A stretch of 64,000 nucleotides of DNA from Hippasteria phrygiana (Eukaryota > Echinodermata > Asteroidea > Valvatida > Goniasteridae): the NCBI GenBank assembly GCA_037893225.1, contig JAZGUH010000449.1, positions 248,001 to 312,000 of the forward strand. The letters are read 5' to 3'. The notes below the pieces were generated by a model, which did no database searches, had not been told where the DNA came from, and worked only from the letters and a program-made list of their open reading frames with translations. How positions within the stretch are numbered: position 1 is the stretch's first letter; each line of letters opens with the position of its first letter. This document shows positions 40,592 through 60,800 of this stretch, piece after piece. The translations under genes and the position numbers were made by a program.

Positions 40592-40597
40592 TCTATT

Positions 40598-41326: not shown

Positions 41327-41357
41327 TTTATAAAGCTTTAAAAAAACTTAAAAATAT

Positions 41358-42071: not shown

Positions 42072-42106
42072 TTTATTAGAACAAAAACAAAATCTTCAAA
42101 AATCGC

Positions 42107-42805
42107 TTAAAATTTACCTATCGTCAAGTTAAAACTAATCTTTTTTCCTCGATTATTTATTAAATCGCCGTCTCGGTCTCTGATACTAAAGCTAAGTTGG
42201 TTTATCTTATCACCCACGAGTCTACGAGCGGTTAATCTTGCACGCTCTACGAGCGTATCGTCTCTTTTCGTTATCGGTATAATGTCTAGCAAGTGCGTTC
42301 CCCTTCCGTTATAGAAATTATTAGACGTAGATAACTGATCGCAATGTAAAAAAATTGCATCGACAGGCATTGTATTATAATGCCCTACGTAATCTACGCC
42401 AAAAACTAAGTTTTTGACCGTTATCCCCAACAATTGTTTAATGTTTTTATCAAAGCGTAGAACGTTATTTTCTTCCGTTACATTTAAAGATATTTTTTTA
42501 TTAAGTTTATCTACAGAGACTTCTAACCAAACTAATTTACTGAGTCTCTCTTCGATCCAATCTATATCGTAATATCCAGCAGGAATATCAATTTTACCAT
42601 CCGTACTACCCGTTTTTTTACCAGTGTTTGGATCGATTTGATGTATAAAATAGAGAATTTCGCTATTACTAGCCATGTTGTAGAAACCCGCGGTTACTAT
42701 CGCGCTGGTTAAACTCATACTGTAATCTCCCTTAGAGTTATCTATAGGTTTTGACAATCTAAAAGTTCGTTCGTTATCAAACATTTCAAAAACGTGCGAT
42801 TCCAT
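42107..42805 (-). CDS. Putative minor capsid-type protein, tandem paralogue 3 (divergent)
   Basis: A 232-aa protein with the same start and order of motifs (MESHVFEM, ERTFRLSKPIDNSKG, IPAGYYDIDWIE, LHCDQLSTSNNFYNGRG) but much lower identity in the middle. It is the oldest of the three. It is divergently transcribed from the 578-aa gene across a 42-bp AT-rich gap. The C-terminal ISFNLTIGK ending is shared with paralogue 2. Confidence 0.75.
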   Translation of the reverse strand: MESHVFEMFDNERTFRLSKPIDNSKGDYSMSLTSAIVTAGFYNMASNSEILYFIHQIDPNTGKKTGSTDGKIDIPAGYYDIDWIEERLSKLVWLEVSVDKLNKKISLNVTEENNVLRFDKNIKQLLGITVKNLVFGVDYVGHYNTMPVDAIFLHCDQLSTSNNFYNGRGTHLLDIIPITKRDDTLVERARLTARRLVGDKINQLSFSIRDRDGDLINNRGKKISFNLTIGKF

Positions 42806-42847
42806 TTTATGTAAAAGATTAAAATAATTGGTTTATTATAAATTAAA
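42806..42847. promoter_or_regulatory. Divergent AT-rich intergenic region with TAAAATG-type starts
   Basis: Only 42 bp separate two divergent ATGs. On the plus strand TTATAAATTAAA runs into the ATG; on the minus strand TTTACATAAA runs into the other. The space is too small for anything but core promoter elements and very short leaders. Confidence 0.5.
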
Positions 42848-44584
42848 ATGAAATTTTTAGACGATAATAATCAACCGTTAAAGAATGCTCCAGATATCGC
42901 GAATCTAGCTGCCCGCATAGGGCGTACGCAAGCACAAAGCGTTAGCGACAAACACGAAGCGATGCGCCCGGCTCTAGATATCATGAATCTAGTTAGAAGT
43001 CAAGACGACTCAACGACTAGCGACAAGTACGAAGCGATAACCCCGGAGAGTACCCCGTTGAGCATGCACTTGAGTCAACCTAACATCATCGTAAACGCGA
43101 ACACAAACGCGAGTTTTATCGCTCGACTAGTTGATATATTTAGCGCTTATAAAATGTCCGATGTAAAACACGACGAAGTGGTCGAACGTTATGCATCGGA
43201 CCCCATGACGTTTTATCAAAATCAACTCAACTTTGCATTTTGGTGCGCGACTTCTGGTTGCGGCGTAGGACTAGAATCGTTGCTACATAAAAACCCCGTA
43301 ATATCGGCTTTATTCAAGTTTCACGTATATTTCACAATCAGAAAGATACTATACTTTCTAAAATGCCCAGTTCCAAACGACAATATATTCGACGATCTAA
43401 ACAATAACATCGATAAAGGCGCTTATAGCGATATTTGTCGATATTTTAATGTCGATCCAAACTTGAGTTTTAGACAGACCGTAGACTTAACTTCTGGAGG
43501 ATTAGGTACCGCTTATTTTTATGCGTTTAAAATAAACAAGTACTCGCCAGATATGCCTTTACCCGTACCCGGTAAAAATTATACCCCTATTAAGCTTTAC
43601 AAGGTTTCGGCTGAATATGACCCGAGTACGGGTAAATATGTGACAGCTAATAAATTGTGGGAATATGATTATGAAGCTATGAACCCCGGTGCCACCTACA
43701 TGGGATTTGTAGAGTCGGGCGATGCGAAACATTTTAGTAAAATTACGCTCGAGTATATCAGACAATCCGCGGACGTTGTACGACTCGGTTTCAGAAATTG
43801 TATACTCCAGAAGAGCTCGTTTACCAACGTTGGTATAGAAAAAATAAACGAAAGCATTAGAACGTACGTGTACGCCATACTCGGTGCGCAAGCCCAAACA
43901 AAAACGAGTATACTAACTGCAGGTACCGGATTAGATGCGCAAAGACAATTTGAAAATATAGTAGAAGATATCATCAACAGCCCTACGGACTTGGAATCTT
44001 CTATAACCAGATTTCAAAATTCTTTACAGTACGCTAGAAGCTCGTTAAACTTTGTGATTAGCCCTGGATTGTACTTAATTCCATCAAATATGGAGCTTTT
44101 AGTAGGTATTCACCAAGGTTATAATAATAATATACAGATAGCTACACCCGGCGCATCGATAGGATTAAACATCAACTTGAACTCAGACGTCGTAGCTACG
44201 CCACCTGCCCCTACACCGCCACCCTCTCCCGTAAAAAAGAGTCGTACGGTAGCCCAACAAAATTTAGACGATTTAGACGATTTAGACCCGTCACCAACCC
44301 CACCCTCTCCCGTAAAAAAGAGTAGTGCAGTAACCCAGCAGAATTTAGACGATTTAGACGATTTAGACGATGTAGACCCATCACCAACCCCTACACCTCC
44401 ATTCTCAGACGTACTCCCTACGGTCGTAGATACTCAAGTACCCCCACCGCCACTCCCTACGAGCGTAGCTACACCACCAACTCAACCGCCAGACTCGCAC
44501 GAACAAGAAAAAACTGCTTTGGTCGTTGGTTTAATAGCCGTTGCTGGGGTTGGGTATCTAGCTTACGATATTTTACGTCGCTGA
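42848..44584 (+). CDS. Conserved 578-aa tail-anchored virion-type protein, function unknown
   Basis: Residues 1-60 are polar and helical (MKFLDDNNQPL start). A conserved-looking core follows with QLNFAFWCATSGCGVGLESLL (about 136-156), FHVYFTIRKIL, and later a segment with YVYAILGAQAQT. Then come a proline-rich linker with two copies of a ~30-residue repeat (SPVKKS, QQNLDDLDDLD, PSPTP) and a C-terminal membrane segment (LVVGLIAVAGVGYLAY) ending DILRR. I recall similar proteins in comparable elements of cnidarians, but cannot name a function. The large size and core order suggest a structural component. Its end overlaps the end of the convergent integrase gene by 12 bp. Confidence 0.8.
   Translation: MKFLDDNNQPLKNAPDIANLAARIGRTQAQSVSDKHEAMRPALDIMNLVRSQDDSTTSDKYEAITPESTPLSMHLSQPNIIVNANTNASFIARLVDIFSAYKMSDVKHDEVVERYASDPMTFYQNQLNFAFWCATSGCGVGLESLLHKNPVISALFKFHVYFTIRKILYFLKCPVPNDNIFDDLNNNIDKGAYSDICRYFNVDPNLSFRQTVDLTSGGLGTAYFYAFKINKYSPDMPLPVPGKNYTPIKLYKVSAEYDPSTGKYVTANKLWEYDYEAMNPGATYMGFVESGDAKHFSKITLEYIRQSADVVRLGFRNCILQKSSFTNVGIEKINESIRTYVYAILGAQAQTKTSILTAGTGLDAQRQFENIVEDIINSPTDLESSITRFQNSLQYARSSLNFVISPGLYLIPSNMELLVGIHQGYNNNIQIATPGASIGLNINLNSDVVATPPAPTPPPSPVKKSRTVAQQNLDDLDDLDPSPTPPSPVKKSSAVTQQNLDDLDDLDDVDPSPTPTPPFSDVLPTVVDTQVPPPPLPTSVATPPTQPPDSHEQEKTALVVGLIAVAGVGYLAYDILRR
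44214..44395 (+). repeat. In-gene duplicated linker repeat
   Basis: Two copies of a 75-90-bp unit encode SPVKKS, then QQNLDDLDDLD and PSPTPP. The second copy has an extra Asp-Asp-Leu step. Repeat-number change in a low-complexity stalk just before the membrane anchor would alter stalk length without affecting the core. Confidence 0.8.
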
Positions 44585-45580
44585 AGAAGGTGGTAACTCA
44601 GTATCTGACGGAACGACCATTAATTCTTTCTTAACGAACGATCTCTTGGGGCCGTGAGTCAGCCAGTACAACGCGGGCTGTCCGGGATCTGTCGTTCTCC
44701 TTCTAATCGTATACATTTCTAAGCTCCAAATAGGATCGGTAGCTCTTCTTCTAACGTCTTTTTCGAGCTCTCCAGGAGCGTAAAGATATCTAACGATATC
44801 GTCATTTACGCTTAGCGCGACTTCGGGGCTCTTGAGCCCCGAAGAACTCAATTGTTTTATTTCTAACTGAGACATAGCCGCTCGAGGAGTTAACGGTTTA
44901 CCTTTCATAGTCGATATCAATCTAGTTTCTTCGTTGTTTAACGCTTTTATAACATCGGGCAATCTTTTTACCCACTCGCGGCTGCGATCGGTAGGCTCTA
45001 ACATTTCTTGAGCGTATTGATGACCGAATAATCTTTCGGCTAAAGTACGATTAAATCTTTCTACTATACCTTGAGCTCTATGATTGCCAACCTCGCCTTT
45101 CTGTACTGCGACGTTGCGAGTCCGCATCAAAGTATTAAATTCAGCCATAAATTCTGTACCGGGGTCTACTTTTATAGTGAGAGGCCAAGACAAGGGCGAT
45201 CTTTTGTAAATCTTTTTTATCGCCTCTACAACTTGAGTACTCGTTTTATTCGTCAAGGGTTCAGCTTCTTTATATCGAGTGGCCACATCGACGATCGTCA
45301 ACGCGTATTTATATCTTTTACGTTTAACTACATCGTGAGGTAGATACAACAGATCCGCTTGATGTTGTTCATTAGGCCGCCCTATAACCTTATTGAGACT
45401 CGTAGGTCTCGGTATAAAACTGGGGGGTGGTAAATATATTTGCCACATGGCTTGTTTTCTCAACCAATTTCTAACGTCTGGCTCGGGTACATTGGCTTTT
45501 AGCGACAATTTTTTTATAGCGCCTGCACCTTTCCAATATCCTTTAGGGCTGTAAAATATTTTACTTAGTTTTGTTTCCAT
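44573..45580 (-). CDS. Retroviral-type (rve) integrase of the Polinton element
   Basis: A 335-aa protein that would cut and join the element's inverted-repeat ends into host DNA. The N-terminal 65 residues include a helix-turn-helix-like part and the basic stretch IYLPPPSFIPRP. The catalytic RNase-H-fold core has D76 (HQADLLYL), D139 (IKVDPGTEF) and E174 (GIVERFNRTL), the exact D,D35E spacing. The C-terminal part (RYLYAPGELEKDVRRRATDPIWSL) is a basic, beta-rich domain likely binding DNA. All three acidic residues are present and the frame is open, so it looks intact. ATG follows TATAAAATAAA. It diverges from the 137-aa gene with a 41-bp gap. Confidence 0.92.
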   Translation of the reverse strand: METKLSKIFYSPKGYWKGAGAIKKLSLKANVPEPDVRNWLRKQAMWQIYLPPPSFIPRPTSLNKVIGRPNEQHQADLLYLPHDVVKRKRYKYALTIVDVATRYKEAEPLTNKTSTQVVEAIKKIYKRSPLSWPLTIKVDPGTEFMAEFNTLMRTRNVAVQKGEVGNHRAQGIVERFNRTLAERLFGHQYAQEMLEPTDRSREWVKRLPDVIKALNNEETRLISTMKGKPLTPRAAMSQLEIKQLSSSGLKSPEVALSVNDDIVRYLYAPGELEKDVRRRATDPIWSLEMYTIRRRTTDPGQPALYWLTHGPKRSFVKKELMVVPSDTELPPSSAT

Positions 45581-45621
45581 TTTATTTTATACTTTGTAAA
45601 AATTTTAACGACTTATTAAAA
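45581..45621. promoter_or_regulatory. Divergent AT-rich promoter-sized gap between integrase and 137-aa gene
   Basis: Forty-one bases separate the two ATGs. The leftward start is preceded by TATAAAATAAA, the rightward start by CTTATTAAAA. Both fit the start context shared by nearly all genes of this element. Confidence 0.5.
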
Positions 45622-46035
45622 ATGGCGAGTGCATTAATGATGATTGGTGGAGCTCTTGTAAACGCTTTAGCGTTTAGCGGATCGAACTTTCTATTTTCGA
45701 AGATGGGTGGGTCGTCGGCTGAAGAACGTAAACGACACCACCTCGCTTTAGAACAATTAACTCGAGCTAAACAAGAGTGGGTGGAACAAAGAACCAAGGT
45801 TCTAGATTATCTAAACGATCGACTACATAAAGAAGCCAGGGCTCAAAAAGATTTTAGAGATGTAGATGAGGCGTTGAGACTATATAACGAAGTAACCAAC
45901 GAAGATATGCGATTACCTCGTGAACCTGTATTGTCAGACTTTTACGTACCCAGCGAAGGCCAAAAAGATGGTGAAATTGCATTTATCGTAGGAGGCACTG
46001 CTGTTTTAGGATTTTTAGTTTACAAGTTTATTTAA
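45622..46035 (+). CDS. Small membrane protein with two hydrophobic ends (137 aa), function unknown
   Basis: I chose the ATG at 45622 (after CTTATTAAAA) rather than a TTG 17 codons upstream. The N-terminus is hydrophobic and glycine-rich (MASALMMIGGALVNALAFSG). A charged helix follows (about residues 30-100, AEERKRHHLALEQLTRAK), then PREPVLSDFYVPSEGQKDGE and a final membrane segment (IAFIVGGTAVLGFLVYKFI). I recall proteins of the same design in related animal elements, always next to the integrase. It probably spans or bridges a membrane in the particle, but this is inference. Confidence 0.8.
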   Translation: MASALMMIGGALVNALAFSGSNFLFSKMGGSSAEERKRHHLALEQLTRAKQEWVEQRTKVLDYLNDRLHKEARAQKDFRDVDEALRLYNEVTNEDMRLPREPVLSDFYVPSEGQKDGEIAFIVGGTAVLGFLVYKFI

Positions 46036-46121
46036 AAGTTTTTGCTTTTGTTTTAGGTTTGTCTAAAAGTATAAGTTTGTCTAAAAGTTTTTTTGTTTTT
46101 TATTTTGTTTCGTTAAGTAAA

Positions 46122-46700
46122 ATGAACGCAATTTATGGAAGCAAACTGAATCCACACAGAAGTTTAAAAAATCCTAGAGCGTTGAAGGGGTTGAGACAAT
46201 CGATGGTTATTACTCATAATCCTAGTACCGCGTCGGCTGGCAGTCTGTTGATCGAGATATACCTATGCGATTTAGAGGTAGAAAAGGTGTCTCTAAACGA
46301 AGCTTTAGAATTGTATAGAGCTCGATTTAAAGGATCGCACGTTCTATATTTGATAGACGATTGTAGCTCGGAACAAGACATAAAATATCGTAAGGCGGCG
46401 CTCGGGAAAAACACTTGTGTTTTAACGAAATTGGCGTTTAGCGGTAGGCATGACAATCACTACTGTTGGTTGATGACTCAAAAGTATAATTGCGTAATGA
46501 CAGATTTTAGAGCTCAAACTGCATATGTCGTATTGTTCTATTGCAAAGATAAAAATAGTTTCGATCAATGTCTCGACGAAAATGATGCGGTGCCCCTAGA
46601 AGAAAGATCGAGAATTAAAAAGATTTTAAGAGATGTGCCTTTTAGTAAATTATTAGTAAAAACTGATCCTCCAGTCTGCTGGCAGTTGATCTATAGTTGA
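46122..46700 (+). pseudogene. Chimeric ORF: start of a capsid-type gene fused to the C-terminal half of a packaging ATPase
   Basis: 192 codons from the ATG in GTTAAGTAAAATGAA; an open TTG-start extension to 46059 is only a repeat leader. From residue ~52 the sequence fits the C-terminal half of an A32/FtsK-like genome-packaging ATPase: ALELYRARFKG, the Walker-B-like VLYLIDDC (D79-D80), SGRH (107-110), TQ (119-120) and R130 before a hydrophobic strand, then a charged helix. Walker A (GxxxxGKS/T) is absent. Residues 1-46 (LNPHRSLKNPRAL, NPSTASAG) do not belong to that family and resemble the opening of another, probably larger virion gene. The simplest reading is an internal deletion that joined two consecutive genes in frame. 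The ORF is open but cannot be an ATPase. Confidence 0.65.
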
Positions 46701-46890
46701 TCTATAGTTGATCTATTAGATACCTGTTAGATACCTGTTAGATGATTTGTAGATGATTTATAGATAACTGTTAGATAACTGTTAGATAACTGTTAGATAA
46801 CTGTTAGATAACTAATAGATGATCTATAGATAACTAATAGATGATCTATAGATAACTGTTAGATAACTATAGATTATCTAGTCATCTATA
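46683..46890. repeat. AT-rich minisatellite of ~11-bp units
   Basis: Runs of TAGATAACTGT (11 bp), GATCTATAGTT and TAGATACCTGT fill this stretch, starting inside the last codons of the preceding ORF. Several units are self-complementary (TAGATGATCTATAGATAAC). It fills the gap between the ATPase remnant and the next gene and may have grown after the deletion to its left. Confidence 0.85.
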
Positions 46891-46894
46891 AAAT

Positions 46895-47122
46895 ATGATA
46901 GAATATCTAGACCTATTATTAAAACTAGTAATAGCCATCAACTTATCTTTATTTTCTTACGATTATATTTCTTGTAGAAATAAGATTAAAAAATATAGTT
47001 CTATTTTAAATGAGCAAGTCGATAGAATCTCTAAGCACGTTATCTCAAGAACCTCATCCAATAGTAGCTGCTACACCCACGACCATAGCGACGATCCCAG
47101 AAGCAACTATGCCCAAAAATAG
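46895..47122 (+). CDS. Possible small membrane protein (75 aa), overlapping the next gene
   Basis: The ATG is preceded by CTATAAAAT, like other starts in this element. An N-terminal hydrophobic helix (YLDLLLKLVIAINLSLFSY) is followed by a basic, serine-rich tail. The last 113 bp overlap the 332-aa gene in another frame. I do not recognise it. It could be real because of its start context and membrane helix, or a chance frame. Confidence 0.4.
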   Translation: MIEYLDLLLKLVIAINLSLFSYDYISCRNKIKKYSSILNEQVDRISKHVISRTSSNSSCYTHDHSDDPRSNYAQK

Positions 47123-48008
47123 ACTTTTGGGCATAGTTGCTTCCGGTGATTCTAAAAAATATTTCGGTAAAGAATACTCCGTCAATGAAATAGAGGGCTT
47201 GACTGTGGAAAAACAAGAAAAGCTATATAAAAGATACGAAGCCAAGCTCGGTAAAGAAATGATAGTCAGTTTGGGGAGTTGCGTGTTAACCTGTTACGCA
47301 AAAGCTTTAGGCGCGACTTTGCCGCTGGCTTCACCATTCGGTTATAAACTTTGTTTAGATTCTGAAGAAGCCCTTATCAACGACTTAGAAAAAGATCCCG
47401 TTATTTCTAGCAGCTTGTCCAGTTTACTTTGCGAAGTGCATTACAATTATGGGGTTTATTTATCTCCTTTGGTGGCTATGTTGATCACGACTAAACATTT
47501 ACAGGTAGATAGTAGTAATAATAGTATTACAAATAATAGTAGTATTACTATAAAAGATGAGTCTAGAAACGACAACGACGGATCAAGTAGCAGAGACCCC
47601 CCAGCCTCCCCAAGAGACTCCCCAAGAGCCGGCTCTGCCTCCCCAAGAGCCGGTTCTGTCTCCAAAGAGTCTCCCCAAGAGCCGGCTCTATCAAGAGTCA
47701 CAAAAAAAAGAGCAAAAGACCCTAAAAGAGTAGAGCAAGGTAAAAAACTGGCTGAAAGAAACAGAAAGATGAAAGAACAAATACAAAAAATGCAAAGTAT
47801 AGAAGAAGAACCTCCCCAGCAAACGTCAGCGCTAACGATGAGAGACATTCCGAGCTGGGGATATGCGATAGTTGGTTTGGTTGTTTTAGGAATTGGATAT
47901 CTCGCGTTTAAAAAGAGTAAACCTGTAGATTCACAGCGAGAGGTGGGGGTAGGAGTTACGATCGCAACTTCCACCCCTAAAGTTGAAGAACTATTAGAAA
48001 TGGAATAA
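47010..48008 (+). CDS. Tail-anchored protein with disordered linker (332 aa), function unknown
   Basis: A globular N-terminal half contains LLGIVASGDSKKYFGKEYS (about residues 39-57), a charged EKLYKRYEAKLGKEM helix and an L-C-E-V-H-Y-N-Y-G segment. A low-complexity linker follows (SSNNSITNN, then SPRAGS repeats), then a basic coiled stretch (KKRAKDPKRVEQGKK) and a membrane helix (YAIVGLVVLGIGYLAF) with a ~30-residue tail. I recall the N-terminal domain from related elements but know no function. ATG lies in CTATTTTAAATGAG. An inverted repeat at 47100-47143 lies inside the coding region around codons 31-45. Confidence 0.75.
   Translation: MSKSIESLSTLSQEPHPIVAATPTTIATIPEATMPKNRLLGIVASGDSKKYFGKEYSVNEIEGLTVEKQEKLYKRYEAKLGKEMIVSLGSCVLTCYAKALGATLPLASPFGYKLCLDSEEALINDLEKDPVISSSLSSLLCEVHYNYGVYLSPLVAMLITTKHLQVDSSNNSITNNSSITIKDESRNDNDGSSSRDPPASPRDSPRAGSASPRAGSVSKESPQEPALSRVTKKRAKDPKRVEQGKKLAERNRKMKEQIQKMQSIEEEPPQQTSALTMRDIPSWGYAIVGLVVLGIGYLAFKKSKPVDSQREVGVGVTIATSTPKVEELLEME
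47100..47143. repeat. Perfect 19-bp hairpin inside a coding region
   Basis: GAAGCAACTATGCCCAAAA (47100-47118) and its exact reverse complement (47125-47143) flank a 6-nt loop. It lies early in the 332-aa gene. It could be a regulatory RNA hairpin, but a template-switch (quasi-palindrome) mutation during replication would also create it. Confidence 0.9.
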
Positions 48009-48040
48009 ATAAAAAAAAAAAAAATGTTTGTACAAGTAAA

Positions 48041-48274
48041 ATGGATATGAAGAACGTTGCAAATACTCTTTATCACGGCGCTGTGTTGAGTTTGTTGACT
48101 TTAGGTTATACTATATTGAGTAAAAAACTTTTGAAAATTAAGCCCGCTGATTTGGGAAAGCTAGACGTAGAAGATACGATTAAAATCACCGCTACGGTAG
48201 GTAGCGCTCTAGCTACTCAGACTTGGTTGGTGAGTCAAGGAGTAATTCCTCAGAATGTAGTAAATACTACGTAA
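48041..48274 (+). CDS. Small conserved-type membrane protein (77 aa), function unknown
   Basis: It begins MDMKNVANTLYHGAVLSL with a single hydrophobic helix (about residues 12-26), then KKLLKIKPADLGKLDVEDT and an amphipathic helix ending WLVSQGVIPQNV. ATG follows CAAGTAAA. Its size and pattern (membrane helix, then KPADLG and a QGIIP-like end) recall small proteins in similar elements of other animals. It lies between two membrane-protein genes with 32-bp and 25-bp spacers, as part of the right-hand gene cluster. Confidence 0.75.
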   Translation: MDMKNVANTLYHGAVLSLLTLGYTILSKKLLKIKPADLGKLDVEDTIKITATVGSALATQTWLVSQGVIPQNVVNTT

Positions 48275-48299
48275 AATATAAAATATACTACTTATTAAA

Positions 48300-49832
48300 A
48301 TGGCTGAAGGTGGAGAATTTAGACCTATGGATGAAATGGGTCGAGAAGACAAACAAAATGATGCTGATGCTGATGCTGATTTCGAATTAGACAGAGACGA
48401 TGAAGGGCCGTTTTCTAATGATTATCAAGAAGAATTAGAAAATCGGTTAAAACTACTAAATAAAGATGACTCTACATCAATAGAAAAACTTAAGGTGATG
48501 TTGGTAAAAGAAAAACTATCCAAGTTCTATAAATATACATATGAGACTACTGGACATACAGTAGATATTGAAGATACTACTAATTTTAGAAGTGATAAAG
48601 ATGGGGGATTATCTGTAAAATGGGTTAGAAAAAATAGATGGATTAAATTAACACAAAAAAAAAATCCGCGCTTGTTTTTACAATTAAAAACTATTCAACA
48701 GAAAACTAGCGCAGAATTTATCAGATATGATCTTGGTTTTTCTAATTATACATCTGCTAGATTCACTAGTAAACCTCAACAAGAAATAAGCCAGATACAC
48801 CCCGAAAATATTGAGATTAGTGAACTTCCAAAAGCGGCCAATGATGTCGGCGATATCGTAAAAGAAGTAGTCGTAGATGTATTGAGAGAAGAAGAAGTAG
48901 ATTTAACGAAACAAGATGTTAATTTTAGTGAATTACTATATGAAATAGATATACTAAATGATACATTAGATGAACGAGAAAAAGTATTAGATGAACGAGC
49001 TAAAGAATTAGGTAAAATAGTAAATACATTAAAGGGGCGAGTAGAAACATTAGATAGATCGAGAGAAGTAGTAGCTAAACGAAGAACAGCATTAACTGAA
49101 CGAGAAAAAGTATTAGCTGAACGAGAAACAGTAATTGCTAAAATTACAGGATTAAAGAACCTTAGAGAAATTGCTGGTTTAAGCAAAGCGTTAGAAACTC
49201 GCAAAGGTGAGTTAGAATTAAATTTAGCTCAATTAAGAAGGTTAGATGATGAAATTAATCAAACCAAAGCTGAACTAACTGAAGCAACGAGCGAAGGAGA
49301 GAGACGAGAAATAGCCAATCGATTAAAAGATCTAAATGATGAAAGATCCGCTAGAATGACAGCGGCGCTCGAAAATGAACGAGGACTGAAAAGTCAAATC
49401 GCTAGAATAAAAGAAACGATTAATAAAATACTAGATGGCGATACCTCGCTAAGAGAAAAGATTAGAATTCTGTTTCCAGAACAGGGCGTGACGGTCGTTA
49501 GTATATTGGCCGCGTTTGCTTTAGCTATAAGTACGATCGTTTCTTCTTTGGTGGCGGCTATTGGTGGCGGAGCTGCAACAGCTGCTGCAGCTTCGTCAAC
49601 CGGAGGTAACGTGAAAGATTGGATAAGTAATCATTTAAAAAACTTGTCCAATTTGCTAAAAAAGCTGGGGGGTAAGTTATTAGCCGCTTTACCGGGTATT
49701 TTGGGTACTATCGCGAGTTGGTTATTCACGTTGTTAAGTAAGTCAGTCGGTTGGTTGGCAGAGCACGTGTGGACATTATTGGTAGGTGTTGGTACTTTGA
49801 TACTAGTATACATGCAAAAAAAATTAAAATAA
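48300..49832 (+). CDS. Large coiled-coil membrane protein (510 aa), function unknown
   Basis: An acidic N-terminus (MAEGGEFRPMDEMG) is followed by a domain at about 60-150 (VKWVRKNRWIKLTQKKNPRL). A long charged coiled coil (about 200-395) contains near-repeats such as LDEREKVLDERAKEL and LTEREKVLAERETV. Then come an Ala/Gly-rich hydrophobic hairpin (SILAAFALAISTIVSSLVAA, then GGGAATAAAASS) and a C-terminal membrane region (LLAALPGILGTIASWLFTLL and WTLLVGVGTLILVYM) ending KKLK. The C-terminal pattern (LKKLGGKLLAALPG, IASWLF, W-LL) recalls a recurrent protein in animal elements of this kind. It resembles a stalked membrane or fusion-like protein in outline only; no such function is shown. Confidence 0.8.
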   Translation: MAEGGEFRPMDEMGREDKQNDADADADFELDRDDEGPFSNDYQEELENRLKLLNKDDSTSIEKLKVMLVKEKLSKFYKYTYETTGHTVDIEDTTNFRSDKDGGLSVKWVRKNRWIKLTQKKNPRLFLQLKTIQQKTSAEFIRYDLGFSNYTSARFTSKPQQEISQIHPENIEISELPKAANDVGDIVKEVVVDVLREEEVDLTKQDVNFSELLYEIDILNDTLDEREKVLDERAKELGKIVNTLKGRVETLDRSREVVAKRRTALTEREKVLAERETVIAKITGLKNLREIAGLSKALETRKGELELNLAQLRRLDDEINQTKAELTEATSEGERREIANRLKDLNDERSARMTAALENERGLKSQIARIKETINKILDGDTSLREKIRILFPEQGVTVVSILAAFALAISTIVSSLVAAIGGGAATAAAASSTGGNVKDWISNHLKNLSNLLKKLGGKLLAALPGILGTIASWLFTLLSKSVGWLAEHVWTLLVGVGTLILVYMQKKLK

Positions 49833-49862
49833 TAAGTCATATAAAATATACGACTTTATAAA

Positions 49863-50498
49863 ATGACCGCAGAATCCGTTTACCCTAAATTGCCTGATGC
49901 CCCGAGTGAAACGAACGAGTCTTCAGTCTTTAGGTTAAATAAAATCGAACGAGTGCAAAAAGAGATATCTAACGAGAGAGATAAGAGAGAACGGTTACAC
50001 AAAAAGTATAATAAAATTATTACCTGTTTATCTAACGCAGAGACCGTTATAGAATGTTTAGGAGCTTTATCTGGTACCATAGGCATAGTCAGCGTTGTAG
50101 GTGTCATTAGTATACCTATAGGCGTGGTGTTAGAAGGATTAGCTATAGGATGCGTGGGTGTAAGTTTGGTATTAAAACGATTTAGTAAAAAGTTTAGAGG
50201 TAAAGCTAAGAAACACGATGAGATTAGAGTAGTAGCCGAAACAAAATTAAATACGATAAATGAATTAGTGTCTCAGGCCGTAGACGATGGCGATGTAAGT
50301 CACGAAGAATTTGCTTTGATTAACGATGAATTAAAAAAGTTTTACGGAATGAAAGAAGCTATTAGGACACAAACTAAAGCGAGAGAAGAGTCTGTTTCTA
50401 ACCAAAAAGAAATAGACGATGAGGTCGAAAAGAAAGTTGTCGAGCTTCTAGCGAAAGAAAAAAAAGATCTTATCGCAAAACTTACAACTTTAAATTAG
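49863..50498 (+). CDS. Membrane-associated protein with YPxL motif (211 aa)
   Basis: The N-terminus has YPKL at residues 7-10, the form of an ALIX-binding YPxL late-domain motif. A basic coiled coil follows (28-50), then a glycine-rich double hydrophobic segment (about 57-100, ALSGTIGIVSVVGVISIPIG) and a charged C-terminal half with VSQAVDDGDVSHEEFALI. I recall the same order (tyrosine-proline start, coiled coil, hydrophobic hairpin, SKAL-DG-VS-EF helix) in related elements. The start follows CTTTATAAA. Near its end an A8 run (50458-50465) includes the in-phase heptamer A-AAA-AAA, from which the -1 frame is open to 50611. Confidence 0.8.
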   Translation: MTAESVYPKLPDAPSETNESSVFRLNKIERVQKEISNERDKRERLHKKYNKIITCLSNAETVIECLGALSGTIGIVSVVGVISIPIGVVLEGLAIGCVGVSLVLKRFSKKFRGKAKKHDEIRVVAETKLNTINELVSQAVDDGDVSHEEFALINDELKKFYGMKEAIRTQTKAREESVSNQKEIDDEVEKKVVELLAKEKKDLIAKLTTLN

Positions 50499-50611
50499 AA
50501 ATATGTAAAGAATATGAGTGTGATTCTAACGTGAGTCCATTGAAACCTCCTAGCTACACAAGTGCTCAAGAGAGTTTAGAGACTAGGCCTAGCGCTCCTT
50601 GCAAAGAGTAG
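50465..50611 (+). other. Candidate -1 frame extension with PPxY and PSAP motifs
   Basis: In the -1 frame relative to the 211-aa gene, reading is open from 50423 to the TAG at 50609-50611 and has no ATG. It encodes PPSY (50546-50557) and PSAP (50588-50599), two classical ESCRT/Nedd4 late-domain motifs, about ten residues apart. It could be reached by slippage on the A8 run at 50458-50465. Alternatives are an old frameshift that cut off a former C-terminus, or chance. Confidence 0.35.
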
Positions 50612-50645
50612 TTGTAGTTAGTAACGCAGTAGATCTACGTAACAC

Positions 50646-50692
50646 AAAAAAACCCTCATCTCTACTGAGTGTAGAAGTGAGGGTTTTTTTTT
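50646..50692. terminator. Strong hairpin with T9 tail at the end of the gene cluster
   Basis: AAAAAAACCCTCA pairs perfectly with TGAGGGTTTTTTT (13 bp), and an inner TCTAC/GTAGA stem closes a 5-nt loop TGAGT, followed by further Ts. The form is that of a terminator or RNA 3'-end hairpin. It sits between the last gene and the right inverted repeat. Confidence 0.65.
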
Positions 50693-50716
50693 GCATTGCG
50701 ACAAATCATGTTTTGC

Positions 50717-50944
50717 CTTTTTTCGCTCGGGCGCCCGGGCGTTTTCGTACGCTTGTGGACTATGGAAAATACTTTTTATTTTCTTGATTTTGTGCAAATT
50801 TTGGTGTGTAGTACCCCAGCAAAATTTTGGGTGATTTTTTAGACTATTTTTAGACTAAAAAATTTGACGTATGTACCCACAGCAAAATTAGAGAGAAAAG
50901 TGAAAAAACAGGAAATGACATAGAACCGGCAATTACCATACTAC
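50717..50944 (-). repeat. Right terminal inverted repeat
   Basis: This is the reverse complement of the left terminal repeat and ends with CCGGCAATTACCATACTAC. High identity of the two ends implies a fairly recent insertion or recent correction of one end by the other during replication. The terminal T at 50945 may belong to the element (5-bp duplication) or to the target (6-bp duplication). Confidence 0.92.
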
Positions 50945-50950
50945 TCGGTA

Positions 50951-53900
50951 TCTTTGTTCGGGTGGGCGCTAGTCGGAAGTCATCAACCCAGAATGCCATA
51001 TAGCCTGATATCACACCCAAGTTTACGATAAAACCTGGGAAGCGACATTGTGGGATCACTCAATGCGGATACGATTTTTTAACTGATAATTCGTCAAACA
51101 ATCCACAAGGGAAACTGACTAGGTAAATTTGAATACAAAAGTGAACAAAGAAACTAGCAGGAGCAGGATCCGAACCTCCGACCTCCGGAACCTTACCGGC
51201 GCTCTACCAACTGAGCTACCTTGCCCTATGTTGGCGGTCTCCCAAATTGTCGGTATCTTTGTTCTGGAGGGCGCTAGTCAGAAGTCATCAACCCAGAATG
51301 CCGTATAACTAGGGATCACACCCAAGTTTACGATACAACCTGGTAAGCGACATTGTGGGGATCACTCAATAAGGATACGACTTTTTAACTGACAATTCGT
51401 CAAACAATCCACAAGGGAAACTGACTAGGCAAATTTGAATACAAAAGTGAACAAAGAAACTAGCAGGAGCGGGATTCGAACCTCCGACTTCCGGAATCGT
51501 ACCGGCGCTCTACCAACTGAGCTATCTTGCCCTATCTTGGCGGTCTCCCAAATCGTCAGTATCTTTGTTCTGGTGGGCGCTAATCAGAAGTCATCAACCC
51601 AGAATGCCGTATAACTAGGGATCACACCCAATTTTACAATACAACCTGGGAAGCGACATTGTGGGGATCACTCAATGAGGATACGACTTTTTAACTGATA
51701 ATTCATCAAACAATCCACAAGGGAAACTGACTAGGTAAATTTGAATACAAAAGTGAACAAAGAAACTAGCAGGAGCGGGATTCGAACCTCCGACTTCCGG
51801 AATCGTATCGGCGCTCTACCAACTGAGCTATCTTGCCCTATCTTGGCGGTCTCCCAAATCGTCAGTATCTTTGTTCGGGTGGGCGCTAATCAGAAGTCAT
51901 CAACCCAGAATGCCGTATAGCTAGGGATCACACCCAATTTTACAATACAACATGGGAAGCGACATTGTGGGGATCACTCAATGAGGATACGACTTTTTAA
52001 CTGATAATTCGTCAAACAATCCACAAGGGAAACTGACTAGGTAAATTTGAATACAAAAGTGAACAAAGAAACTAGCAGGAGCGGGATTCGAACCTCCGAC
52101 TTCCGGAATCGTACCGGCGCTCTACCAACTGAGCTATCTTGCACTATCTTGGCGGTCTCCCAAATCGTCAGTATCTTTGTTCTGGTGGGCGCTAATCAGA
52201 AGTCATCAACCCAGAATACCGCATAGCCAGGGATCAAACTCAATTTTACAATACAACCTGGGAAGCGACATTGTGGGGATCACTCAATGAGGATGCGACT
52301 TTTTAACTGATAAAATCGTCAAACAATCCACAAGGGAAACTGACTAGGTAAATTTGAATACAAAAGTGAACAAAGAAACTAGCAGGAGCAGGATTCGAAC
52401 CTCCGACCTCCGGAATCGTACCGGCGCTCTACCAACTGAGCTATCTTGCCCTATGTTGGCGGTCTCCCAAATCGTCAGTATCTTTGTTAGGGTGGGCGCT
52501 AATCAGAAGTCATCAACCCAGAATGCCGTATAGCCAGGGATCACACCCAAGTTTACGATACAACCTGGGAAGCGACATTGTGGGGATCACTCAATGAGGA
52601 TACGACTTTTTAACTGATAAAATCGTCAAACAATCCACAAGGGAAACTGACTGACTAGGTAAATTTGAATACAAAAGTGAACAAAGGAACTAGCAGGAGC
52701 GGGATTCGAACCTCCGACCTGCGGAACCTTACCGGCGCTCTACCAACTGAGCTATCTTGTCCTATGTTGGCGGTCTCCCAAATTGTCGGTATCTTTGTTC
52801 TGGTGGGCGCTAGTCAGAAGTCATCAACCCAGAATGCCGTATAGCTAGGGATCACACCCAAGTTTACGATACAACCTGGGAAGCGACATTGTGGGGATCA
52901 CTCAATAAGGATACGACTTTTTAACTGATAATTCGTCAAACAATTCACAAGGGAAACTGACTAGGTAAATTTTAAAACATTCTGAAAGTTAACAAAGAAA
53001 CTGGCCGGAGCGGGATTCGAACCTCCGACTTCCGGAATCGTACCGGCGCTCTACCAACTGAGCTATCTTGCCCTATCTTGGCGGTCTCCCAAATCGTCAG
53101 TATCTTTGTTCGGGTGGGCGCTAATCAGAAGTCATCAACCCAGAATGCCGTATAACTAGGGATCACACCCAATTTTACAATACAACATGGGAAGCGACAT
53201 TGTGGGGATCACTCAATGAGGATACGACTTTTTAACTGATAATTCGTCAAACAATCCACAAGGGAAACTGACTAGGTAAATTTGAATACAAAAGTGAACA
53301 AAGAAACTAGCAGGAGCGGGATTCGAACCTCCGACTTCCGGAATCGTACCGGCGCTCTACCAACTGAGCTATCTTGCCCTATGTTGGCGGTCTCCCAAAT
53401 CGTCAGTATCTTTGTTAGGGTGGGCGCTAATCAGAAGTCATCAACCCAGAATGCCGTATAGCCAGGGATCACACCCAAGTTTACGATACAACCTGGGAAG
53501 CGACATTGTGGGGATCACTCCATGAGGATACGACTTTTTAACTGATAAACAAAATCGTCAAACAATCCACAAGGGAAACTGACTAGGTAAATTTGAATAC
53601 AAAAGTGAACAAAGAAACTAGCAGGAGCGGGATTCGAACCTCCGACCTGCGGAACCTTACCGGCGCTCTACCAACTGAGCTATCTTGTCCTATGTTGGCG
53701 GTCTCCCAAATTGTCGGTATCTTTGTTCTGGTGGGCGCTAGTCAGAAGTCATCAACCCAGAATGCCGTATAGCTAGGGATCACACCCAAGTTTACGATAC
53801 AACCTGGGAAGCGACATTGTGGGGATCACTCAATAAGGATACGACTTTTTAACTGATAATTCGTCAAACAATTCACAAGGGAAACTGACTAGGTAAATTT

Positions 53901-55397
53901 TAAAACATTCTGAAAGTTAACAAAGAAACTGGCCGGAGCGGGATTCGAACCTCCGACTTCCGGAATCGTACCGGCGCTCTACCAACTGAGCTATCTTGCC
54001 CTATCTTGGCGGTCTCCCAAATCGTCAGTATCTTTGTTCGGGTGGGCGCTAATCAGAAGTCATCAACCCAGAATGCCGTATAGCCAGGGATCACACCCAA
54101 GTTTACGATACAACCTGGGAAGCGACATTGCCGGGATCACTCAATGAGGAGACGACTTTTTAAAATATATTTCGTCAAACAATCCACAAGGGCAACTGAC
54201 TAGGTAAATTTGAATACAAAAGTTAACAAAGAAACTAGCAGGAGCAGGATTCGAACCTCCGACCTCCGGAACCTTTCCGGCGCTCTAACAACTGAGCTAC
54301 CTTGCTCTATGTTGGCGGTCTCCCAAATTGTCAGTATCTTTGTTCTGGAGGGCGCTAGTCAGAAGTCATCCACCCAGAATGCCGTATAGCCAGGGATCAC
54401 ACCCAAGTTTACGATACAACCTGGGAAGCGACATTGTGGGGATCACTCAATAAGGATACGACTTTTCAACAGATAATACGTCAAACAATCCACAAGGGAA
54501 ACTGACTAGGTAAATTTGAATACATTTTGAAAGTGAACAAAAAATCTGGCAGGAGCGGGATTCCAACCTCCGACCTACGGAACCGTACCGGCGCCCTACT
54601 AACTGGGCTATCTTGCCCTATGTTGGCGGTCTCCCAAATTGTCGGTATCTTTGTTCTGGTCGACGCTAGTCAGAAGTCATCAACCCAGAATGCCGTATAG
54701 CTAGGGATCACACCCAAGTTTACGATACAACCTGGGAAGCGACATTGTGGGGATCACTCAATAAGGATACGACTTTTTAACTGATAATTCGTCAAACAAT
54801 TCACAAGGGAAACTGACTAGGTAAATTTTAAACATTCTGAAAGTTAACAAAGAAACTGGCCGGAGCGGGATTCGAACCTCCGACTTCCGGAATCGTACCG
54901 GCGCTCTACCAACTGAGCTATCTTGCCCTATCTTGGCGGTCTCCCAAATCGTCAGTATCTTTGTTCGGGTGGGCGCTAATCAGAAGTCATCAACCCAGAA
55001 TGCCGTATAGCCAGGGATCACACCCAAGTTTACGATACAACCTGGGAAGCGACATTGCCGGGATCACTCAATGAGGAGACGACTTTTTAACTGATAATTC
55101 GTCAAACAATTCACAAGGGAAACTGACTAGGTAAATTATAAAACATTTTGAAAGTGAACAAAGAAACTGGCAGGAACGGGATTCGAACCTCCGACTTCCG
55201 GAATCGTACCGGCGCTCTACCAACTGAGCTATCTTGCCCTATCTTGGCGGTCTCCCAAATCGTCAGTATCTTTGTTCGGGAGGGCGCTAATCAGAAGTCA
55301 TCAACCCAGAATGCCGTATAGCCAGGGATCACACCCAAGTTTACGATACAACCTGGGAAGCGACATTGCCGGGATCACTCAATGAGGAGACGACTTT
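50951..55397 (-). repeat. tRNA-like tandem satellite array, middle block
   Basis: The same monomers resume exactly where the Polinton-like insertion broke them and continue to the Penelope-like element. Here many monomers lack the CATTTTGAAA segment (AATACAAAAGTGAACAAAG variant) and are more diverged than in the left block. Variants with an extra AAAATCGTC or a GACTGACTAGG duplication occur near 52.6 kb. A unit including GTTAACAAAGAAACTGGCC recurs near 52.99, 53.92, 54.84 and 58.56 kb. No genes are seen. Confidence 0.93.
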
Positions 55398-55411
55398 CTA
55401 AAATATATTTC

Positions 55412-55777
55412 AAATCAAAAAATTAGCTGGCCTGACGTTTCGAACTTAAGCAAGTTCTTTCTCAAAGGCAAATGACAGAGTACAAGAAACAAACATGTAG
55501 GGAACACACATGCATGAGGGGGTGGGTGGAGAAACACAAAAGAGGGATGCAAGGGAGCATGGCAGTGGGTAAACATCAAAGAGAGAGGTTTGGGTAAGTA
55601 TGAATGCGGGGAGGGATTAGGATGAAGGTTGAAGCTGGGGAATTGGACAAAGGAATGTGGTTAGTGGCAAAGATAAACAGGAAATGGTAAGACAACCCCA
55701 TTTGGCCAAGAGACCCCAAGAGGGTTTGCCAGGAGGATAATCTGTAAACAAATGACAATGGGGGAAAAAATTAAAAG
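55412..55777 (-). other. 3' region of the Penelope-like element with a hammerhead-like motif
   Basis: Non-coding stretch after the stop codon. Near the end, on the minus strand, a 6-bp stem (GAACTT-GCTT-AAGTTC) is followed directly by GAAACGTC, the order found in the stem II/GAAA/cleavage part of Penelope hammerhead ribozymes (55440-55468). The upstream CTGAnGA box is poor (TTGAGAA), so if it is a ribozyme it is degenerate. Nothing else is recognised here. Confidence 0.4.
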
Positions 55778-57871
55778 TTAATCATTCCCTTCCTGGATGT
55801 TTAGACCATGTGGTTGAATAGTCCGAAGACGTTTCATCCAAACTTTCTCTCGGCTGAGGCGAACTGAGTCCTTGCGGTGGAAAAGTGATTCTATGCCCTG
55901 TAGAATCATATCAGAAATGGAATGGTTAGGCAAGTTGAAGTGATGACCAACAGGGGTGTCAATTTTCTTGGTGTTTACAGTCGATCGATGGCCATAGAAA
56001 CGCTTCTTGAGCGTGTTCTTGGTCTCCCCGACATACTGGATACCACAAACCCTGCAAGAAATGAGATATATGACATTAGAGGTGTTGCAAGTAATGTTGC
56101 CATTGGTTCTGTGAGTAGTTCCAGATGAATGGCCAGAAAAGGAGTCAGACTCCTGCATGTGAGTCTGGCAAACAACACACCTGGAATCGCACTTAAAAGT
56201 ACCATGCTGTATGGGAGGGGATGCAGCCAAGGTGGGGACCTCGGCTCGAACAATCAGGTCTCGTAGATTGCGGGGGCGCCTATAAGCCAATATTGGGTTG
56301 TCAGGGGCGGCACGGGCAAGGCGATCTGAAGTATGAAGGATATGATGGTTGTCATTAGTTATTTTACGAAGGGGAGGGAGACTAGGATGAAAGGTGGTGA
56401 CCAAGGGAATCTTGGGGTCGGCATTAGTGCTAGGTGTCTTTTTCTTGAGCGCAAAATCTCTGGTGATAGATTTGGCTCTGACGATAGCACGTTGAACTTG
56501 GCGGGAGCTGTGGCCCCTGGCAACCAAGTTATTCTTCAGTACCTGTACATGATGGGAAAAGTCAGAATTATTAGAACAAATCCTTCTGAGTCTAAGTGCC
56601 TGGCTGAATGCTATGCCTGTCTTGCAATGCCTGGGGTGACAGCTGGAGGAGTGGAGGTACTGGTGGGTGTCTGTGGGTTTAGAATACAGATCAGTGGTTA
56701 CCGAGTTGTCTTCCTTGCGGATGGTGACATCCAGGAAGTTGGTCTGATGCACTGAATACTCTGATGTAAACTTGATGGTCCTGTGGAAGGAATTAATGTG
56801 ATTAATGAAAGTCTCCAGACTGTCCTGATCACTGGTCCAGATGAAAAATACATCGTCAATATATCTCCACCATACCCAGGGGCGACATGGTGCTGAGGCA
56901 AGCATGCGCTCTTCGAGGTCGCCCATGAAGAGGCATGCAAAGGAGGGGGCCATGCGAGTGCCCATGGCTGTACCGTGTACCTGTAGATAGTGTTTGCCTA
57001 GGAAGGAAAAATTGTTCTTGGTTAGTACAAGTCTCATGAGGGTGCCAATATCACTGATGGGTGGGGTTGTGTGTCCTGCCTTGGCCAGGCCCGAGGAACA
57101 AGCACGAATACCCTCCTCGTGGGGGATGTTGGTGTACAGGGATGAAACGTCAAAAGTCCCAATGATGGCTGTGCTGGGAATCTTGTTCTTGATTCCATCC
57201 AGCTTGCGCAGAAAGTCTGGGGTGTCATGGATGTATGATGGCATCTGTGGAACGAGGGGTTTGAGAAAACTGTCAATAAACAGGGAGATACGTTCCGTAG
57301 GTGAACCATTACCAGAGACAATGGGCCTACCGGGGTTGCCAGCCTTGTGAATCTTTGGAAGGAGATAAAATCTGGCAGTCCTACAGTCAGAGGGAGAGAG
57401 AAATTTATGAGCTTTCTTAGACAGCTGGTCACGTGATCGCATATCGTCCAGCACCTGTTGTATCTCTTGAGAGAATGTACCTGTGGGGTCAGAGTCAAGG
57501 CAGATGTAGTTAGTATGATTGTTCAACTGGCGGTGGGCCTCGTCAATGTACTGATGACGATCCATGATGACCACAGCTGAACCTTTGTCGGCCGGCTTGA
57601 TGATGATATCAGTACGGGAGCGCAAGGCATTCAACGCCAAGCGCTCCTCTCTGCGGAGATTGTCATGAGTTCTGTGGACAAAGTTATCAGGGTTAGTGAC
57701 TTGAGAACTGACAACTTGAACATAAGTCTCGAGGGCTGGTACACGATTCTTGGGGGGTACCCAGGTACTTTTGACACGGAACGGTTCTGGGTCACATCGG
57801 TCAGAATCAAGGAAAAACTCTCGGAGACGGATCCTACGGTAGTATTCCGTGAGATCTTGGCTGAGCTCTAC
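55778..57871 (-). pseudogene. Penelope-like reverse transcriptase/GIY-YIG endonuclease, N-terminally truncated
   Basis: The frame is open from the junction at 57871 to a stop at 55778 with no methionine start at the head; a TTG at 57640 has no support as a start. Early coding shows YYRRIRLREFF, typical of the pre-RT region. Then come PADKGSAVVIM, FYLLPKIHK, the RT core FDVSSLYTNIPHEEG, GTAMGTRMAPSFACLFMGDL and the catalytic YIDD (near 56850-56860). The C-terminal part has a cysteine cluster (CDSRCVVC) and a GIY-YIG nuclease: IYLISCRVCGIQYVGET with downstream R and H. All catalytic motifs are intact, so only the 5' end is lost. The base composition is more GC-rich than the Polinton genes. Confidence 0.9.
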
Positions 57872-57885
57872 CTAAAATATATTTC

Positions 57886-60800
57886 GTCAAACAATCCACA
57901 AGGGCAACTGACTAGGTAAATTTGAATACAAAAGTTAACAAAGAAACTAGCAGGAGCAGGACTCGAACCTCCGACCTCCGGAACCTTACCGGCGCTCTAC
58001 CAACTGAGCTACCTTGCTCTATGTTGGCGGTCTCCCAAATTGTTAGTATCTTTGTTCTGGAGGGCGCTAGTCAGAAGTCATCAACCCAGAATGCCGTATA
58101 GCCAGGGATCACACCCAAGTTTACGATACAACCTGGGAAGCGACATTGTGGGGATCACTCAATAAGGATACGACTTTTCAACAGATAATACGTCAAACAA
58201 TCCACAAGGGAAACTGACTAGGTAAATTTGAATACATTTTGAAAGTGAACAAAAAATCTGGCAGGAGCGGGATTCCAACCTCCGACCTCCGGAACCGTAC
58301 CGGCGCCCTACTAACTGGGCTATCTTGCCCTATGTTGGCGGTCTCCCAAATTGTCGGTATCTTTGTTCTGGTCGACGCTAGTCAGAAGTCATCAACCCAG
58401 AATGCCGTATAGCTAGGGATCACACCCAAGTTTACGATACAACCTGGGAAGCGACATTGTGGGGATCACTCAATAAGGATACGACTTTTTAACTGATAAT
58501 TCGTCAAACAATTCACAAGGGAAACTGACTAGGTAAATTTTAAAACATTCTGAAAGTTAACAAAGAAACTGGCCGGAGCGGGATTCGAACCTCCGACTTC
58601 CGGAATCGTACCGGCGCTCTACCAACTGAGCTATCTTGCCCTATCTTGGCGGTCTCCCAAATCTTCAGTATCTTTGTTCGGGTGGGCGCTAATCAGAAGT
58701 CATCAACCCAGAATGCCGTATAGCCAGGGATCACACCCAAGTTTACGATACAACCTGGGAAGCGACATTGCCGGGATCACTCAATGAGGAGACGACTTTT
58801 TAACTGATAATTCGTCAAACAATTCACAAGGGAAACTGACTAGGTAAATTATAAAACATTTTGAAAGTGAACAAAGAAACTGGCAGGAACGGGATTCGAA
58901 CCTCCGACTTCCGGAATCGTACCGGCGCTCTACCAACTGAGCTATCTTGCCCTATCTTGGCGGTCTCCCAAATCGTCAGTATCTTTGTTCGGGAGGGCGC
59001 TAATCAGAAGTCATCAACCCAGAATGCCGTATAGCCAGGGATCACACCCAAGTTTACGATACAACCTGGGAAGCGACATTGCCGGGATCACTCAATGAGG
59101 AGACGACTTTCTAATATATATTTCGTCAAACAATCCACAAGGGCAACTGACTAGGTAAATTTGAATACAAAAGTTAACAAAGAAACTAGCAGGAGCAGGA
59201 CTCGAACCTCCGACCTCCGGAACCTTACCGGCGCTCTACCAACTGAGCTACCTTGCTCTATGTTGGCGGTCTCCCAAATTGTTAGTATCTTTGTTCTGGA
59301 GGGCGCTAGTCAGAAGTCATCCACCCAGAATGCCGTATAGCCAGGGATCACACCCAAGTTTACGATACAACCTGGGAAGCGACATTGTGGGGATCACTCA
59401 ATAAGGATACGACTTTTCAACAGATAATTCGTCAAACAATCCACAAGGGAAACTGACTAGGTAAATTTGAATACATTTTGAAAGTGAACAAAAAATCTGG
59501 CAGGAGCGGGATTCCAACCTCCGACCTCCGGAACCGTACCGGCGCCCTACTAACTGGGCTATCTTGCCCTATGTTGGCGGTCTCCCACATTGTCAGTATC
59601 TTTGTTATGGTGGGCGCTAATCAGAAGTCATCAACCCAGAATGCCGTATAACTAGGGATCACACCCAATTTTACGATACAACCTGGGAAGCGACATTGTG
59701 GGGATCACTCAATGAGGATACGACTTTTTAACTGATAATTCGTCAAACAATCCACAAGGGAAACTGACTAGGTAAATTTGAATACAAAAGTGAACAAAGG
59801 AACTAGCAGGAACGGGATTCGAACCTCCGACTTCCGGAATCGTACCGGCGCTCTACCAACTGAGCTATCTTGCCCTATGTTGGCGGTCTCCCAAATTGTC
59901 GGTATCTTTGTTCGGGTGGGCGCTAATCAGAAGTCATCAACCCAGAATGCCGTATAGCCAGGGATCACACCCAAGTTTACGATACAACCTGGGGAGCGAC
60001 ATTGTAGGGATCACTCAATAAGGATACGACTTTTTAACTGATAATTCGTCAAACAATCCACAAAGGAAACTGACTAGGTAAATTTGAATACATTTTGAAA
60101 GTGAACAAAAAACTGGCAGGAGCGGGATTCGAACCTCCGACCTCCGGAACCGTACCGGCGCTCTACCAACTGGGCTATCTTGCCCCTATGTTGGCGGTCT
60201 CCCAAATTGTCGGTATCTTTGTTCTGGTGGGCGCTAGTCAGAAGTCATCAACCCAGAATGCCGTATAACTAGGGATCACACCCAATTTTACAATACAACC
60301 TGGGAAGCGACATTGTGGGGATCACTTAATGAGGATACGACTTTTTAACTGATAATTCGTCAAACAATCCACAAGGGAAACTGACTAGGTAAATTTGAAT
60401 ACAAAAGTGAACAAAGAAACTAGCAGGAGCGGGATTCCAACCTCCGACTTCCGGAATCGTACCGGCGCTCTACCAACTGAGCTATCTTGCCCTATCTTGG
60501 CGGTCTCCCAAATCGTCAGTATCTTTGTTCGGGTGGGCGCTAATCAGAAGTCATCAACCCAGAATGCCGTATAGCCAGGGATCACACCCAAGTTTACAAT
60601 ACAACCTTTGAAGCGACATTGTGGGGATCACTCAATGAGGAGACGACTTCTTAAATTATAATTCGTCAAACAATCCGCAAGGGAAACTGACTAGGTAAAT
60701 TTGAATACAAAACTGAACAAAGAAACTAGCAGGAGCAGGATTCGAACCTCCGACTTCCGGAATCGTACCGGCGCTCTACCAACTGAGCTATCTTGCCCTA

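Follow-up and report, generated by a model that had tools for sequence, protein, structure and literature searches.

The 64,000-nucleotide (nt) stretch of Hippasteria phrygiana DNA analysed here (contig JAZGUH010000449.1, positions 248,001 to 312,000; hereafter the window, whose own coordinates are used throughout) carries a Polinton-like element of 15.46 kb (35482-50945) embedded in the 311-bp satellite array of the window, and our analysis centres on the last gene of this element and the DNA just beyond it. The gene (49863-50498), which lies on the plus strand together with all other features of the locus, encodes in frame 0 a protein of 211 amino acids (aa) that begins MTAESVYPKL, so that residues 7-10 form YPKL (49881-49892), a late-domain motif of the ALIX type. 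A run of eight A (A8, 50458-50465) contains the heptamer A AAA AAA in phase (50459-50465), with frame 0 reading GAA AAA AAA GAT across the run and stopping at a TAG (50496-50498). The open part of the -1 frame spans 50423-50611, and entering this frame at the run would give a tail of 48 codons plus stop (50465-50611), the first part of which, from the slip site to the frame-0 stop (50466-50498), is dual-coding, while the remainder holds PPSY (50546-50557), a late-domain motif of the Nedd4 type, and PSAP (50588-50599), one of the Tsg101 type. The original prediction, made from this copy, had placed YPKL near the start of the last gene, PPSY and PSAP in the -1 frame beyond the gene end within reach of the A8 run, and an A-AAA-AAA slip site at that run, and all of these lie where it put them. 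Directly after the tail stop (50645-50692), inspection by eye finds an inverted repeat (CCCTCA...TGAGGG) followed by a T run, perhaps an RNA 3'-end signal.

The element contains 393 stop-to-stop segments of 20 aa or more. PPxY occurs once among them and P[ST]AP once, both in the segment that holds the -1 tail, and both motifs appear together in 1e-4 of shuffled 48-residue tails. Slippery sites of the form XXXYYYZ are common in this A+T-rich element, so the heptamer alone means little and the weight falls on conservation. Copies were searched in one genome (944 Mb, 1285 contigs), where the 211-aa protein gave 934 first-look candidates, the best 150 of which were scored. After removal of L039-L041, which repeat L002, L017 and L018, 138 distinct copies made up the comparison set, a sample that leans to intact genes because it was ranked by the frame-0 protein, the tail not being used. 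All comparisons of tail DNA refer to this one host genome, the homologues from other sources discussed below being frame-0 proteins.

Across the 138 copies, identity to the window protein ranges from 60 to 100% (median 94%). The A8 run is present in phase after a G in 93 copies, hereafter canonical, and in 88 of these 93 the -1 frame encodes PPxY as well as P[ST]AP, so that the frame and the two motifs predicted from a single copy are conserved in its relatives within the same genome. The canonical copies hold 75 distinct tails with very different linkers, and in the 88 the first motif is PPSY (52), PPDY (23) or PPNY (13), with PSAP 6 or 10 residues after it and a tail length of 40-56 residues. 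The N-terminal YPxL is found in 135/138 copies, and both proline motifs are present in some frame in 127/138 (the 88 canonical copies and 39 of the 45 others). A further 20 tail stretches have A8 in 17, of which 15 hold both motifs; the remaining two have PPSF in one and PSTP in the other as replacement. The exact 31-base slip-and-overlap site occurs 494 times genome-wide, against 0 for a reversed control. The upstream -1 stop lies 14-59 nt before the run (14 nt in 13 of the 88 copies) and the frame-0 stop 30 nt past it in all 88 copies measured, and any shift is confined to the interval between these two stops. A separate ATG start for the tail was not found, as an ATG in the tail frame between the upstream -1 stop and PPxY is present in only 1/88 copies.

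To measure selection, all 93 canonical copies, with or without the motifs, were matched to nearest neighbours in pairs that share no copy, at three divergence cuts (46, 46 and 31 pairs); such pairs are independent only to an approximation, and subfamilies may have exchanged sequence. Within the non-overlapping tail, purifying selection is strongest in the -1 frame, where the ratio of non-synonymous to synonymous change (pN/pS) is 0.54, 0.52 and 0.50 (p 4e-6 to 3e-9); for control frame a it is 1.01, 0.95 and 1.10. At the three cuts, 24/33, 34/44 and 40/43 of the tail indels have lengths divisible by three. Frame-0 synonymous change is suppressed in the dual-coding overlap, where the ten codons after the run show 5 such changes at each cut versus 25.9, 33.5 and 35.5 expected from the gene-body rate (pairs with equal-length bodies only), a deficit with Poisson probabilities of 7e-7 to 2e-10. 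For the 86 copies with an unbroken body and both motifs, pN/pS is 0.46-0.51 in the tail and 0.20-0.23 in the body.

The slip site itself is conserved as DNA: among 100 loci readable as E-[KNTR]-[KNTR]-[DE]-L, GAA AAA AAA precedes GAT or GAC in 93, and AAA AAG stands there in two. Elsewhere, in the gene bodies of 91 copies, AAG accounts for 531/1998 Lys codons and AAA AAA for 21/451 Lys-Lys pairs. Because the copies are related these counts are not independent events. Judged by sequence comparison, both frames, the slip codons and the three motifs are conserved and under selection in the host genome, and the pattern is neither due to chance nor merely a damaged gene.

The motif pairs of the non-canonical copies, present in 39/45, lie in the +1 frame in 20, the -1 frame in 13 and frame 0 in 6. 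In only eight of the 45 does a shift to the -1 frame at an in-phase A AAA AAN heptamer lead on to both motifs. Copies with seven A (A7) number 15/138 and require 14 changes on a tree of the gene bodies versus 14.5 with shuffled labels, as would be expected for scattered, repeated late losses; this tree is weakly supported, with 14/134 inner branches starred, and the starred branches alone force 5 A7 changes.

From other sources, 36 relatives of the 211-aa protein were recovered at E up to 1, and scans of viral contigs returned none. The five closest, at 43-70% identity in the alignment, all have an N-terminal YPxL (YPQL, YPDL, YPAL, YPDL and YPDL), and their C-terminal E/Q-K-K is followed by D or E in four and by K in P0005, where the protein ends; the four distant members of the same alignment have no YPxL. 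AlphaFold2, run with 24 sequences, predicts long helices at residues 18-79, 85-142 and 147-210 and a floppy N-terminus, and residues 72-90 are strongly hydrophobic by hydropathy. If the protein is a hairpin in the membrane, YPxL and PPxY/PSAP would both be cytosolic, because no helix includes the YPxL end and the tail is attached behind the last one. The top Foldseek matches among viral models are uncharacterised invertebrate iridovirus proteins (E 3.6e-8, 8.7e-7 and 2.9e-6), at 21-26% identity (25% for the best) and a root-mean-square deviation of 6.9-15.5, from a low-confidence query model; they perhaps reflect gene exchange or shared origin. The next ranks are two unnamed entries and then giant-virus proteins, several of them named SLATT or 2TM effector, and NS3 of Palyam and Orungo viruses appears at ranks 46 and 50 with E of about 0.2, which is not significant.

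These data suggest that the last gene yields two products from one message. The main product would be a helical protein associated with membranes, its YPxL on a flexible N-terminus, and at A8, where the -1 tail is very probably made by slipping, a minority of events would pass into the -1 frame and bypass the nearby frame-0 stop, so that the shifted product gains a flexible tail with PPxY and PSAP. As a hairpin in the host membrane the protein would leave both of its ends in the cytosol, where the main product could offer ALIX binding and the minority product would add Nedd4-type ligases and Tsg101. Recruitment of Nedd4 and of the endosomal sorting complex required for transport (ESCRT) is the likely function of such a motif set, exit from cells would be its likeliest use, and the frequency of slipping would determine how much of the strongly ESCRT-recruiting form is present where particles leave. 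We hold it probable, with moderate confidence, that low-level slipping, by the ribosome or by RNA polymerase, makes a minority isoform of a membrane protein with an ESCRT-recruiting tail and that this isoform serves exit. The original prediction took the motif set to imply ESCRT-dependent exit, and it is borne out in part: the three-motif, slip-joined arrangement is under selection, and the slip itself, the membrane topology, the partner binding and the exit are what we infer.

A number of observations weigh against this reading. Of the 138 copies, 45 fall outside the strict A8 pattern, and five A8 copies do not have the motif pair (PPxY only in one, PSAP only in one, neither in three). Three copies (L011, L014 and L044) read the tail in frame 0, continuous with the gene, and four (L013, L037, L054 and L092) have it in the -1 frame without an in-phase heptamer. 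The 30 non-canonical copies that are not A7 cluster on the tree (17 changes versus 27.6 shuffled), and therefore not every loss is a lone late event. Only 4/20 copies below 82% identity to the window protein are canonical, versus 89/118 above; we read the divergent non-canonical copies as older and decaying, though they may instead represent an ancient lineage that lacks the slip. Shortly ahead of the frame-0 stop, a second heptamer is of the TTTAAA type in only 63/93 copies, and another run of at least seven A occurs in 15/91 gene bodies. Control frame b of the tail has pN/pS mildly below 1 (0.75, 0.71 and 0.68; p 0.0013-0.031), and the tail has no third-codon-position excess, so that the signal of selection on it rests on the codon-based test. 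RNA downstream of the run has no excess stability by simple folding (z score 0.11), and folding of 20 random copies gave a mean z of -0.18 and no stable structure; programmed -1 ribosomal frameshift sites usually, though not always, have a stimulatory structure there. The helical model is itself of low confidence, with a mean predicted local distance difference test score (pLDDT) of 63.

Because simple folding found no RNA structure downstream, slipping by the polymerase stays viable as a source of the tail: RNA polymerase would alter the length of the A8 run in some messages and so produce the same fusion. A pure A run could suffice for this without the RNA stimulator that we did not find, and changes of run length at the DNA level are frequent, A7 being present in 15/138 copies. 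The run and its in-phase Glu codon GAA are kept together in 93/100 readable loci, which a ribosomal site would demand too and which does not discriminate between the two, and we consider transcriptional slippage unlikely. Far less probable is a tail joined by splicing or begun at a non-ATG codon with no slip at all. A GTG does stand in the tail frame ahead of PPxY in 66/88 copies, yet such an origin would explain neither why the AAA AAA codons are kept nor why synonymous change is suppressed from the run to the frame-0 stop. That a run-length mutation split what is now a pseudogene into gene and tail, with copies alike merely through recency, would suit the many young copies (median 94% aa identity to the window protein) and the occurrence of broken runs, and it is the least credible of the alternatives in the face of synonymous suppression in the overlap, frame-specific selection on the tail, in-frame indels, 494 exact sites, the scattered A7 losses and a frame-0 stop 30 nt past the run in every one of the 88 copies measured.

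A different question is what the motifs are for. Adenoviruses and Polintons are held to be related, which counts for a use in entry or intracellular transport instead of exit. The PPxY of adenovirus protein VI acts in entry, recruiting Nedd4 for post-entry transport, according to the passages covered of the paper concerned (PMC2841620); the likeness to the element lies in a PPxY that recruits Nedd4 in a DNA virus, and the difference in that protein VI is capsid-internal, acts in entry and involves no slip. PPxY, P(S/T)AP and YPxL together are by contrast the classical set of budding proteins, the 211-aa protein is predicted to be membrane-associated, and an adenovirus-like capsid was not recognised by Pfam in 12/13 open reading frames (ORFs) of the element, so that we think a role in entry or transport improbable in comparison with exit.

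The element around this gene is bounded by terminal inverted repeats of 227 nt (35482-35708 on the left and 50719-50945 on the right) that are 97% complementary to each other, with termini AGTAGT/ACTACT and CGGTA on the outer side of both ends, a probable target-site duplication. On the plus strand at 37562-40591 lie DNA polymerase B-like ORFs with an endonuclease VII-like insert (PF02945); they gave no Pfam polymerase match up to E 10 and contain a visible YTDTDS, which we take to be the polymerase B motif. On the minus strand are three paralogous ORFs of about 240 aa (40598-42805), without a family match above the cut-off in the two of the three that were scanned, and a retroviral-type (rve) integrase (44573-45580; PF00665, E 1.3e-9, 38.7 bits, cut-off 32.6). 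Further ORFs on the plus strand encode proteins of 578 aa (42848-44584), with a C-terminal hydrophobic anchor at residues 558-576; 138 aa (45619-46035), with a hydrophobic segment at the C-terminus; 192 aa (46122-46700), with only a weak PHROGs terminase match (E 0.0016); 332 aa (47010-48008), with a hydrophobic segment close to the C-terminus; and 510 aa (48300-49832), with three hydrophobic segments in the C-terminal part. Hydropathy thus indicates possible membrane segments in five ORFs of the element (578, 138, 332, 510 and 211 aa), and three of the four ORFs preceding the frameshift gene (45619-49832; 138, 332 and 510 aa) have hydrophobic segments at or near the C-terminus. The layout of inverted repeats, rve integrase, polymerase-like ORFs and gene cluster is that of a Polinton. 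No double jelly-roll major capsid protein or other capsid protein, packaging ATPase or adenain-like protease was recognised by Pfam in 12/13 element ORFs, the one missing from the scan (41358-42071) being a paralogue of its neighbours.

The 578-aa protein has at least 120 homologues at E up to 0.01, and its model has a confident core (231 residues with pLDDT of at least 90) that matched nothing at E 0.001 among solved or viral structures (best E 1.5 and 1.6). The window copy also contains a perfect inverted duplication of 395 nt (36750-37144 and 37210-37604, arms 65 nt apart), which overlaps the end of ORF 35794-36873 and the start of the polymerase-like ORF 37562-38167 and is either a lesion or an assembly fold-back. 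Outside the element, the 311-bp satellite occupies 1-35481, 50948-55401 and 57879-64000, its units containing a tRNA-Ser(CGA)-like gene on the minus strand; ARAGORN finds eight tRNA-Ser and one tRNA-Pro in 50900-55500. A 697-aa open segment on the minus strand (55778-57871) resembles a Penelope-type reverse transcriptase with a GIY-YIG-like end.

Several known systems share parts of this arrangement, and the comparisons that follow draw on passages of the papers cited. In bluetongue virus, the small protein NS3 crosses the membrane twice and carries the late domains PPRY and PSAP. It enlists Nedd4-type ligases and Tsg101 and drives the non-lytic budding of a non-enveloped virus (PMC6949946). 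Like the putative slipped product of the element, orbivirus NS3 is a membrane protein with PPxY and PSAP; unlike it, NS3 belongs to an RNA virus and carries its motifs N-terminally in a single frame, whereas in the Polinton protein PPxY and PSAP are C-terminal and would be reached only by the slip, with YPxL at the opposite end. Orbivirus NS3 is the best functional comparison, by likeness of arrangement rather than demonstrated kinship. Budding of tiger frog virus, which is a vertebrate iridovirus, involves ALIX, Tsg101 and Nedd4, engaged by L-domain proteins (PMC4880917), but the three motifs are in three separate proteins and there is no slip. A -1 frameshift at the 3' end of some adintovirus Penton genes is suggested by program prediction (preprint PMC11071296), and is similar in that a slippery site near the 3' end of a late gene gives an alternate C-terminus; the gene is another one, and some of the tails are cysteine-rich and not late-domain motifs. 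For Mavirus, which shares features with Polintons, a motif survey of virophages reports PPxY in 5% of proteins (PMC6027436), a motif count in which, in the passages covered, neither a frameshift nor a triple set appears. Finally, nine Polintons without the major capsid protein also lack protease and ATPase, which was read as a concerted loss of capsid functions (PMC4028283). By sequence our element resembles such a capsid-less Polinton, and against the loss described there, it has a membrane-protein and late-domain module under selection.

The literature searched, which covered few subscription papers, yielded no report that Polintons have a late-domain module or use ESCRT, and where 'Polinton' and 'ESCRT' occur in the same paper they do so, in the parts covered, in unrelated places. 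As far as these searches show, this would be the first example in which slipping supplies late-domain motifs; the HIV-1 Gag-Pol shift, by contrast, replaces the late-domain peptide. An element present in hundreds of copies in one genome appears to use a deliberate slip of the reading frame to add two ESCRT motifs to a protein that carries the third, which suggests an exit from cells by means of the membrane-cutting machinery of the host. More speculatively, and as a possibility that we would not call probable, capsid-less Polintons may be membrane-bounded viruses in which membrane-anchored proteins replace the capsid and a slip-regulated triple late-domain protein drives budding via ESCRT; if true, capsid-less Polintons would not be dead transposons. 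Viral particles of Mavericks/Polintons had not been observed as of 2021, according to the abstract of one paper (PMC8097293). A conserved and selected ESCRT-recruiting module would give a direct handle on how Polintons leave cells.
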